Assembly: GCA_021735445.1 (NCBI GenBank)
Contig: JAIPHA010000013.1
Span: 1-38,051, forward strand
Source of the DNA: Candidatus Omnitrophota bacterium
GTDB lineage: Bacteria > Omnitrophota > Gorgyraeia > Duberdicusellales > 4484-171
DNA: 38,051 bases
Reading direction: 5' to 3'
Every line of letters starts with the position of its first letter. The first letter of the stretch is position 1. The position numbers were made by a program, and so were the translations under genes. The notes below the pieces were generated by a model, which saw only the letters and a program-made list of their open reading frames with translations, searched no databases and was not told where the DNA came from. Shown here one piece after another: positions 1 through 35,633 of this stretch.

Positions 1-112
1 ATCCTCTGGCTTAATCGTAAGAGGATTTATCGCATCAAAATAATGTATTAGATTCTCAAACAACGATGAACTATCTTTAAGGCACAGTCCAAATAAATAA
101 AATAAAAACTAT

Positions 113-184
113 GGAGCCGATCGGATTTGAACCGACGATCTCCTCGTTGCGAACGAGGTGTGCTCCCAGCTGCACCACGGCCCC
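113..184 (-). tRNA. tRNA-Ala (anticodon CGC)
   Basis: Reverse complement GGGGCCGTGGTGCAGCTGGGAGCACACCTCGTTCGCAACGAGGAGATCGTCGGTTCAAATCCGATCGGCTCC(A). Cloverleaf is complete, anticodon loop TTCGCAA gives CGC, T-loop is GGTTCAAATCC, and the G3:U70 alanine identity pair is present. Confidence 0.95.
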
Positions 185-280
185 AATTTAATAAGCTTTA
201 TCCAGTATTTTCCGAATATTACAATATAAATTTCATTGAATTTTATTAAAAAGGCTGGTTCTTTGAAGGTTTTTATTAGT

Positions 281-33614: not shown

Positions 33615-35177
33615 TTAGAGGTATTGTAAAAAATTTGGTTTATTGTAGATATCTAAGAGATAATTTACTTTATTCCGGTCCCAAAGAGTAATTTTTTTGT
33701 TCTTTGCCAGCAAATTAGCGGTATCAGTTAACCGGTCTAAAGAGATAAATATTTTTTGAACGTTTTTCCCTTTAATATTGCTGCCTTTTTTAATAAATTC
33801 AAGAAGGTCATTGTCGTCGGCAACTCTTTCTTTTATTCCCGCGAAAACGATTTTTTTCCCTTCCCCAATTAAAAGATGGAATCCGTTTTCCGGATAAGAA
33901 ATTGTCTTCACATTATCTAATTTGGGCAATATAAGCTTATCTTTATCAATCGACAAAGAATCGTCTTTAAAGGTCATAAAGAGTTCGAGTATTTTTTTCA
34001 ATCTATTTTTTACAAACTCTTCTTTAAATACATTTATTTCTTCTTGTATCTCTATTTGCCAGAGGTTTTTCCTTTTTTCCGGATCAAATACGGGAAAAAC
34101 AGAATAAAACTTAAAGAAATGAGCCAACCAAAACGAAAAAAGCCTGTCTTTTATCTTATAGATATTGCCATGTTTGTTTAGATAATTAAGAGTTGTTAAT
34201 TTGTTGAGCTTGTGGTTTATGTCACGGCTGGAGGCTCCGGAGAGCTCTTTTAAGCTTTCTTTGCGCATGTAACCTTTGGCTAATAAAAAAAGAAGTTTAA
34301 CCACAGAAAGAGGCTCTTTGAAATGGTAGCTAATTCTATCTATTCGGTTGTTGAACTTTTGAAAAAAATAAGTCTCTTTTTTAAAAAGCAAGCTTTCCAA
34401 TATTTTTACTATGGCATTTTCTTCAACCTCGTTGTAAAGCTTTTTGATCCTTTTTTGAAATAATTGGTAATATCCTCTGTTGTTTCCGATAATATTAATA
34501 AAAAAGGAAATAAAAATGGGAGAAGGTGAGACTGTATGCAGCTTATTTTCAAGCCAGAGAAAATTGGAAAAAAAATTGTTGCTATTAAGATATATTTTTT
34601 CAAAATTGCCGAAAAGAAAGTTTAATTCATTGCCTAGTATTTTGTTTGCGGTATTCGGGCAGGATGAGCCGATTATTAACATGCATTTTCTTTGCGAGAT
34701 TGCAAAATGAGCAAATTGTTGGTAGAAATTGTTGAAAAGTTCATTCACTTGCGGAAAGTTTTCGATTATAAAAATACAACTCTGGCCGCTCTCTTTGATG
34801 AATTGGTTTATTAATTCTAATATTTCTGAAAAATCAATATTTTTCTGCAATAACTTTTTGATTAAGCCGGTAGTTTCAGGCAAAAGGTCAGAGCAAATCG
34901 TTATCAGCTGGTCCAGATTTGTGGTGGTAGAACTGTATTCGGAAAGTAAGGAGAAAGAAACCGACTTAAGCAGGTTGAATCTATCTAAATGGGTGGGGTC
35001 AAGATAAATATGGGCTAGTTGATTGACTTTTTTTTCGGATAAGTATTTATCGAGTAAATTTGATATTTCATTTTTATCATCAGCAAGGATGGCTATATTC
35101 TGGCGATAACCTTGCCGAAAAGAATCGATCCTTTTAACGAGAGTGGTTAAGCTGTAATTTTCTTTAAAAGGCATCAT
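33615..35177 (-). CDS. Divergent ATPase_2 / archaeal-type ATPase-like protein with degenerate P-loop
   Basis: 520 aa; N-terminal NIAILADDKNEISNLLDKYL at the P-loop position lacks GK[ST]; CIFIIENFPQV Walker-B-like; wHTH-like LSGASSRDINHKLNKLTTLNYLNKHGNIYKIKDRLFSFWLAHFF typical of the family. Confidence 0.5.
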   Translation of the reverse strand: MMPFKENYSLTTLVKRIDSFRQGYRQNIAILADDKNEISNLLDKYLSEKKVNQLAHIYLDPTHLDRFNLLKSVSFSLLSEYSSTTTNLDQLITICSDLLPETTGLIKKLLQKNIDFSEILELINQFIKESGQSCIFIIENFPQVNELFNNFYQQFAHFAISQRKCMLIIGSSCPNTANKILGNELNFLFGNFEKIYLNSNNFFSNFLWLENKLHTVSPSPIFISFFINIIGNNRGYYQLFQKRIKKLYNEVEENAIVKILESLLFKKETYFFQKFNNRIDRISYHFKEPLSVVKLLFLLAKGYMRKESLKELSGASSRDINHKLNKLTTLNYLNKHGNIYKIKDRLFSFWLAHFFKFYSVFPVFDPEKRKNLWQIEIQEEINVFKEEFVKNRLKKILELFMTFKDDSLSIDKDKLILPKLDNVKTISYPENGFHLLIGEGKKIVFAGIKERVADDNDLLEFIKKGSNIKGKNVQKIFISLDRLTDTANLLAKNKKITLWDRNKVNYLLDIYNKPNFLQYL

Positions 35178-35261: not shown

Positions 35262-35355
35262 TTAGATTTACCCGCATACTTATCGTATTTAAAAGAGCTT
35301 AGCATATGCATTTTATAGCTTCAAACTATGATTAGCCTATGGAGCGGGCGAGCGG
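35262..35355. repeat. 94-bp direct repeat, copy 1 (contains duplicated tRNA-Gly 3' end)
   Basis: ttagatttacccgcatacttatcgtatttaaaagaGcttagcatatgcattttatagcttcaaactatgattagcctatggagcgggcgagcgg; one mismatch to copy 2 at offset 137. Confidence 0.97.
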
Positions 35356-35363
35356 TAAAATCT

Positions 35364-35381
35364 CTTGGCCGCAAGGCCAAG
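35364..35381. other. Perfect 7-bp hairpin with GCAA tetraloop between the direct repeats
   Basis: CTTGGCC-GCAA-GGCCAAG, flanked by an imperfect outer inverted repeat GGTAAAATCT (35354-35363) / AGATTTACC (35401-35409). Confidence 0.7.
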
Positions 35382-35398
35382 CCTACTGCTTATGCCTG

Positions 35399-35492
35399 TT
35401 AGATTTACCCGCATACTTATCGTATTTAAAAGAACTTAGCATATGCATTTTATAGCTTCAAACTATGATTAGCCTATGGAGCGGGCGAGCGG
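35399..35492. repeat. 94-bp direct repeat, copy 2 (overlaps 3' end of tRNA-Gly)
   Basis: Same 94 bp as 35262-35355 with a single G/A difference (35297 vs 35434). Confidence 0.97.
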
Positions 35493-35550
35493 AATCGAAC
35501 CGCCGTTACTAGCTTGGGAAGCTAGTGTTCTACCATTGAACCACGCCCGC
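35480..35550 (-). tRNA. tRNA-Gly (anticodon CCC)
   Basis: Reverse complement GCGGGCGTGGTTCAATGGTAGAACACTAGCTTCCCAAGCTAGTAACGGCGGTTCGATTCCGCTCGCCCGC(T); anticodon loop TTCCCAA. Confidence 0.95.
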
Positions 35551-35555
35551 AGAAT

Positions 35556-35633
35556 CACAGATATCACAGAATGCGTGTAAAATCATGTTGTAGAGAAGAC
35601 ACAGAGTCTCTTACTTCATCTGTGCCCTCTGTG
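35556..35633. repeat. Degenerate CACAGA/TCTGTG palindromic intergenic sequence (tRNA-Gly/thiC gap)
   Basis: CACAGATATCACAGA (35556-35570) versus TCTGTGCCCTCTGTG (35619-35633): inverted, 12/15 matched; further inner CACAGAGTCTC. Confidence 0.6.

Follow-up and report, generated by a model that had tools for sequence, protein, structure and literature searches.

The window considered here is a stretch of 38,051 nucleotides from the genome of a Candidatus Omnitrophota bacterium, and it carries a tRNA-Gly(CCC) gene whose 3' end takes part in a direct repeat. A sequence-only reading had described this repeat as two 94-bp copies, and it is there as described (35262-35355 and 35399-35492, 93/94 identical, offset 137 from start to start), as is the detached 3'-end fragment of the tRNA that the left copy was said to contain, CCGCTCGCCCGCTCCA. 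The right copy covers the last 16 nt of the tRNA-Gly(CCC) gene, from C61 to CCA. The inverted repeats that had been noticed in the spacer are also present, but the true helix is longer than noted and reaches into both repeat copies, having the form GCGG-G-TAAATCT / AGATTTT-A-CCGC around CTTGGCC-TTGC-GGCCAAG. Along the minus strand one therefore reads tRNA-Gly, a left (T) domain of 64 nt, a hairpin (H) domain with the sequence GCGGGTAAATCTAACAGGCATAAGCAGTAGGCTTGGCCTTGCGGCCAAGAGATTTTA, then CCGCTCGCCCGCT(CCA), a second T, and another H of which 14 nt, its first, are present. The features of this locus, and those of a second one at the left end of the window, are as follows.

35477-35550, minus strand: tRNA-Gly(CCC) with its CCA encoded (ARAGORN and Rfam RF00005); the putative insertion point is the T-loop/T-stem boundary, ATT^CCGC.
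35480-35492, minus strand: proximal target copy, C61 to the discriminator, CCGCTCGCCCGCT, belonging to the working tRNA (repeat comparison).
35413-35476, minus strand: left (T) domain, 64 nt past the CCA, including AAGTTCTTTTAAA (sequence).
35352-35412, minus strand: hairpin (H) domain, with X=GCGG, the unpaired G, stem, linker, CTTGGCC-TTGC-GGCCAAG, stem, and X'=CCGC (covariance model R1).
35343-35355, minus strand: distal target copy, repeating the 3' end of tRNA-Gly, with CCA after it at 35340-35342 (repeat comparison).
35262-35339, minus strand: truncated next unit, with a second T domain and GCGGGTAAATCTAA, only the 5' half of H (repeat; a similar truncated last unit occurs in genomes G002 and G020).
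111-185, minus strand: tRNA-Ala(CGC), the second unit-bearing tRNA of the window; its target copy, C56-N73, is at 112-129.
1-110, minus strand: beginning of the second element, with T ending in CTAATACATTAT and then the 5' half of H, interrupted by the contig end.

Folding of the window locus as a single sequence is uninformative (z = -0.98, not significant), and for this reason the structure was decided by comparison across loci. The covariance model of H, R1, matches the hairpin of the window with 34.3 bits (E=8.1e-6), and the X' of this hairpin consists of the first bases of the distal tRNA-Gly copy. The same anatomy recurs in independent assemblies, so that the repeat is generally no assembly artefact, and it is probably one locus of a dispersed, tRNA-associated element family in Omnitrophota. 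The number of units in the window's own genome could nevertheless be under-assembled, with contigs frequently ending in such arrays. An assembly break at a unit array is seen at the left end of the window itself: the end of contig C14 (L318) overlaps positions 1-110 and continues through a full H as far as a duplicated tRNA-Ala 3' end, and the tRNA-Ala(CGC) unit is thus split between the two contigs. This unit is without the otherwise conserved unpaired G.

Other features near these genes are worth recording. Positions 35551-35610, upstream of tRNA-Gly (CACAGATATCACAGAAT...), recur on contigs C34 and C36 of the genome and represent another dispersed repeat near tRNAs. Positions 33615-35177 encode an ATPase-like protein of 520 aa that matches nothing in Pfam, relatives of which lie directly after tRNA-Gly in G011, G031, and G035. 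Moreover, the tRNA-Gly(TCC) of the same genome (C27, L003 3022-3095) shares about 50 nt of the tRNA-Gly(CCC) trailer but lacks H, which points to gene conversion or to a unit remnant.

Regarding the extent of the phenomenon, the neighbourhoods of tRNA genes were read as stretches, and the last 12 nt of each tRNA were sought 20-260 nt downstream of it, the 3' ends of the genome's other tRNAs serving as control. In the window's own genome, the tRNA's own 3' end recurs for 10 of the 36 tRNAs (Fisher p=7e-11), and similarly for 10/33 in G009 (p=6e-13), 5/32 in G003 (p=6e-5), and 4/35 in G036 (p=7e-5), against about 1% for the control ends; G043, which belongs to another order, gave 0/35. Eight of the ten in the own genome are Gly(CCC), Gly(GCC), Leu(TAG), Arg(TCT), Arg(ACG), Trp, Phe, and Ser(GGA), while Gln and Glu(CTC) complete the set with a different form of duplication, and these copies behind many other tRNAs rule out a phenomenon restricted to tRNA-Gly. 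At tRNA-Gln (C10, about 123887-124483, L140) the duplication is of 28 bp and covers the whole T-arm; a match to a Y1 (RAYT-like) transposase starts about 200 nt downstream of it, and this duplication is possibly a separate element type.

The comparison with related genomes that had been suggested for the tRNA-Gly(CCC) locus gave H and the 3'-end copy in G002, G003, and G004, the three other species of the genus with a readable H, while in G001 the contig ends inside the unit. The same layout is found in other genera, with two identical 121-bp units in G009 and one unit plus a truncated one in G020, and in another family, where G036 has two units and then the contig end. A scan of 386 genomes of the class with a Gly-specific pattern returned true units in the window's family only, which is a limit of the pattern and not of the element; outside Omnitrophota a genome-wide pattern scan gave only a few other matches, and the one of them looked at more closely, the Stappia record, is a tandem tRNA. 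With the covariance model of H, about 145 matches were obtained in 28 of the 38 family genomes, often in tandem and many at contig ends, together with two weak matches in G036 and, for the tRNA loci of G043 and the tyrT region of Escherichia coli, nothing below E=0.7.

The element lying between the target copies measures 105-130 bp and consists of a weakly conserved left part followed by a hairpin, X-G-S-linker-hairpin-S'-D, that abuts the second copy. In the standard plan, T has about 60-70 nt (61-71 nt at most tRNA loci), X 4-5 nt, and S 6-8 nt, X and S being separated by an unpaired G; the linker, an apical hairpin, S', and the single base D come next, and X', the first bases of the copied target, starting with C, closes the helix. 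The outermost 4 bp of the right-end hairpin are therefore formed by X of the element and the first four bases of the distal target copy. This pairing is perfect in 18 of 20 loci as opposed to 24 of 352 combinations with the X' of other targets (permutation p<1e-5), and X differs between tRNAs (X:X' being GCGG:CCGC, TTCG:CGAA, GTTG:CAAC, TTTG:CAAA, CTTG:CAAG, TCGG:CCGA, and others).

A seed alignment of 12 elements has 98.1% of its cells paired and both-sided changes in 12 of the 18 pairs, whereas slid strands reach at most 43%; for 51 matches of the covariance model, these values are 98.3% and 17 of 18, with 34-43% in the slid controls. Trimming of the seed alignment was manual and guided by the X:X' pairing, and the model matches were themselves selected for pairing, but the sliding control, the scarcity of G-U pairs, and the kept mismatch do not depend on this in an obvious way. 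G-U pairs account for 5/862 in H, whereas acceptor stems of tRNAs from these genomes have 5.2% (p=4e-10), and across 80 matches the conserved unpaired G faces A, G, or T but in no case C. The stems of H are kept while its linkers drift, and T frequently ends in GCCTAATACATTA at unrelated targets; no terminal inverted repeats were seen, but only the hairpin of the right end. A simple automatic search for stems beside the copy is too weak for single loci, and a curated alignment with a covariance model is required.

Two other descriptions of H were considered and set aside. The apical loops are mostly of 3-4 nt and varied in sequence, and a UNCG tetraloop was dropped; the idea that H is a degenerate second tRNA gene, suggested by a length near that of tRNA-Gly and by its start, GCGGG, does not hold elsewhere, where the start of H is unlike its tRNA. 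In addition, a boxA-like motif (GTTCTTTA) occurs in T domains (for example L032, L118, and L123), being found after 10/23 tRNAs with units and 11/131 without.

The target sites are sharply defined. The junction is TT^C (the caret marking the point of junction) in 41 of the 43 loci with a readable proximal copy, which starts there, at T-loop C56 (or C61) in tRNAs, and runs approximately to the discriminator base. The duplicated pieces of target have 13-22 bp, and among these 43 loci copy lengths gather at 17-22 bp wherever the match is not lengthened by a tandem unit; the element plus one duplication measures 126-153 bp in 42 of them, and the distance from copy start to copy start is 126-180 bp across all. 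Most units stand behind tRNAs (Gly, Ala, Leu, Ser, Arg, Trp, Lys, Tyr, Val, Pro, Asp, and Glu), one is behind the tmRNA (L314), and some adjoin a tRNA-Leu gene at its 5' end, on the strand opposite to it. Others are located at gene starts, namely at rpmE, with a 20-bp duplication that includes the Shine-Dalgarno sequence and the start codon (ATG), at fpg, with a 22-bp duplication of the first codons, and at the genes for a CDP-alcohol phosphatidyltransferase (pgsA-like), rpmH, and a UvrD helicase. At L304 and L319-L321, units of 153 bp stand in tandem and antisense to the gene whose start they occupy (pgsA-like, uvrD, rpmH).

In L288, L301, L313, L281 (Asp), and L307, CCA follows the distal copy and not the proximal one, and the duplication therefore stops at the discriminator; this distribution is consistent with an element that entered an existing gene and duplicated it as far as the discriminator base. 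In L298 and L315 the polarity is reversed, and it is the proximal copy that has the CCA. Since the element is flanked by a copy of the tRNA's own end, the tRNA is left intact.

The units turn over. Presence is variable within the genus: Val(TAC) has a unit in G001 and G004 and none in G000 and G003, Leu(TAG) and Phe have one in G000 and none in G003, and a remnant is all that is found at Arg(ACG) in G003. The distal tRNA-end copies at Trp and Arg(ACG) of G003 (L158 and L172) are split by a different hairpin repeat (TCCCGACG...CGTCGGGA) right after CAACTC/CGACTC, and other copies are split by GCCTGCC...GGCAGGC palindromes (L279 and L281). The identity of H averages 87% for the same tRNA within the genus, and for different targets it is 0.64 within a genome and 0.63 between genera, so that dispersal may be old, units at different targets being no more alike when they share a genome than when they come from different genera; close cross-target pairs do exist, such as Arg(TCT)/Val(TAC) with 88-89%. 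Two trailers of one array are near-identical within a genome and sometimes unrelated between genomes (G000, G002, and G004), hence the repeats of one array have been homogenised, and the identical tandem units seen in arrays indicate duplication in place. Gly-GCC carries the same H in G000 and G003, a retention that could equally mean a useful RNA.

Taken together, dispersed copies are found at unrelated loci between direct copies of the target, as in MITEs, and the duplications at unrelated targets, the constant length, the fixed junction, and the shared H argue for a gene-less insertion element. Our main reading, to which we assign a probability of about two in three, is a dispersed, MITE-like family of non-autonomous insertion elements of 105-130 bp with a preference for tRNA T-loops, whose arrays then expand and homogenise. 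Among the options left by the sequence-only reading, its "tiny non-autonomous element" is the best fit, with a conserved element recurring behind many tRNAs and in several species. A tandem duplication explains the growth of arrays as a second step, but as a one-off event it is refuted by the H shared with other tRNAs and gene starts; nor did unit number vary without structural conservation, as had been envisaged, the structure being strongly conserved.

The scar of an excised island fares worse, given that a 120-bp structured element recurs behind many tRNAs in various species and that no larger insert separates the copies at any of the 43 loci measured; none of the six window genes adjoining the locus that were scanned is an integrase. 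In its general form, this explanation takes the units to be tyrosine-integrase islands that deletions have reduced to att scars of about 120 bp. In its favour, identity blocks from the T-loop to the 3' end are the usual attB of tRNA-targeting integrases, but length, hairpin, and junction are uniform at dozens of loci, the duplications also occur at the starts of rpmE, fpg, pgsA-like, rpmH, and uvrD, and there is no phage match, the pattern matches in viral contigs being chance ones without the structure. We regard it as largely refuted, with a probability close to nil.

A more serious competitor, albeit an improbable one, is a functional RNA resembling rtT, released from the primary transcript of the tRNA between two tRNA 3' ends, with a helix kept by selection on the RNA. 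The sequence-only reading, too, had listed a structured RNA co-transcribed with the tRNA, an option that is possible but disfavoured by the near lack of G-U pairs. The tyrV/rttR locus of E. coli shares the layout, its 178-bp units all closing with a duplicated 3' end of tRNA-Tyr, and rtT is released there from the tRNA transcript (PMC4986893); stems kept amid drifting linkers and the boxA-like motif enriched after unit-bearing tRNAs (10/23 vs 11/131) point the same way. The near-absence of G-U pairs relative to the acceptor stems speaks against such an RNA, as do the units antisense to the gene at gene starts and at tRNA-Leu 5' ends, the patchy presence even within the genus, and the lack of any match in Rfam. 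The same scarcity of G-U pairs would suit pure replication error, in which slippage or template switching at tRNA genes repeatedly makes both duplication and palindrome with no mobile element, for template switching corrects imperfect palindromes and yields perfect stems without wobble intermediates (PMC8794818). The X:X' match fits this as well, and the arrays of identical units show duplication in place, yet error by itself appears very unlikely when H has a sequence common to different tRNAs and genera (up to 89%), T often has the same end at unrelated targets, and length and junction are constant; furthermore, palindrome correction would erase the G mismatch, which is kept.

For the insertion element, the kept G mismatch argues that the right end is also under selection, and a hairpin with such a mismatch could be an end read by an enzyme. 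A recombinase or transposase acting in trans would recognise the folded hairpin end and insert the element at TT^C, duplicating the target, and insertions at tRNA or tmRNA 3' ends would survive because the duplication rebuilds the RNA. The match of X to the target may arise in either of two ways, X guiding the choice of target or template switching correcting an imperfect palindrome after insertion. Tandem units would then grow, shrink, and homogenise by recombination between repeated tRNA ends, and the outcome at 35262-35492 would be the order tRNA, unit, truncated unit, in an A-S-A pattern. A reverse transcriptase (PF00078) was found in 6 of 38 genomes, but not in the window's own genome or in most of the unit-rich ones, and a Y1 transposase in 30 of 38, with none in the unit-rich G017 (16 H matches), G059, and G033. 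A resident enzyme of either type as mobiliser is not supported, both being missing from unit-rich genomes, although these are incomplete metagenome-assembled genomes (MAGs). No longer, autonomous copy was seen among the loci read, and no clean pair of empty and filled sites was found between close relatives.

These results turn an odd repeat into a genome-wide and sharply defined family, with tRNA T-loops as landing sites, a duplicated tRNA end, and a hairpin that fits its target. They raise the question of which enzyme reads the folded end and whether X guides target choice or is corrected afterwards, and the units may explain assembly breaks at tRNA genes in several Omnitrophota assemblies. 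No description of the Omnitrophota elements was found in searches of open-access papers. There is a reasonable chance that the hairpin end matched to its target embodies a new principle. More tentatively, and with the odds against it, one might propose a new class of mobile element in which the right end, when folded, forms base pairs with the adjoining host sequence, the pairing segment is rewritten or chosen for each tRNA target, cassette-like arrays build up behind tRNA genes, and the tyrT/rtT repeats of E. coli are a relic of the same kind.

Among known systems, MITEs are likewise short, gene-less, and dispersed, with target duplications on their flanks, whereas the Omnitrophota elements are not bounded by terminal inverted repeats and have a hairpin at one end, a tRNA preference, and a target-matched X. 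REP/BIME sequences with their RAYT enzymes and the ends of IS200/IS605 share a hairpin that has a conserved mismatch and, at its base, a short tetranucleotide resembling a guide, but they are not known to make target duplications, and Y1 enzymes are not always present together with the Omnitrophota units. The attC cassettes of integrons bear a resemblance only, in that tandem units terminate in a folded site where one base is unpaired and the apex is variable; no integrase was found, the H consensus (X-GG-A...) is without the RYYYAAC/GTTRRRY boxes, and target duplications are present. Casposons, which are Cas1 transposons, insert at tRNA-Leu 3' ends with 14-bp duplications (PMC6977970), and there too the target duplication keeps the tRNA working; they differ in being large and gene-bearing with terminal inverted repeats, while the elements described here are gene-less, with a 13-22-bp T-loop duplication and one hairpin end.

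The closest known object is the set of rtT/tyrT repeats of E. coli, and rtT-like elements have been found among BIMEs (PMC2965389). The Rfam RtT model has no match at the gathering score, nor at E<=5 on the window locus, there is no sequence match, and the E. coli copy starts at A58/A59 without the X-G-S-D form. In both systems, tandem units stand behind a tRNA whose 3' end is repeated at the close of each unit; the 178-bp repeats behind tyrV, which give the rttR/rtT RNA, contain a 5' segment, GGGGAAGGAT, complementary to ATCCTTCCCC of the tRNA-Tyr 3'-end copy. What is confined to one tRNA operon in E. coli extends in Omnitrophota to many tRNAs, the tmRNA, and some gene starts, and the Omnitrophota units thereby suggest an origin for these long-known repeats.
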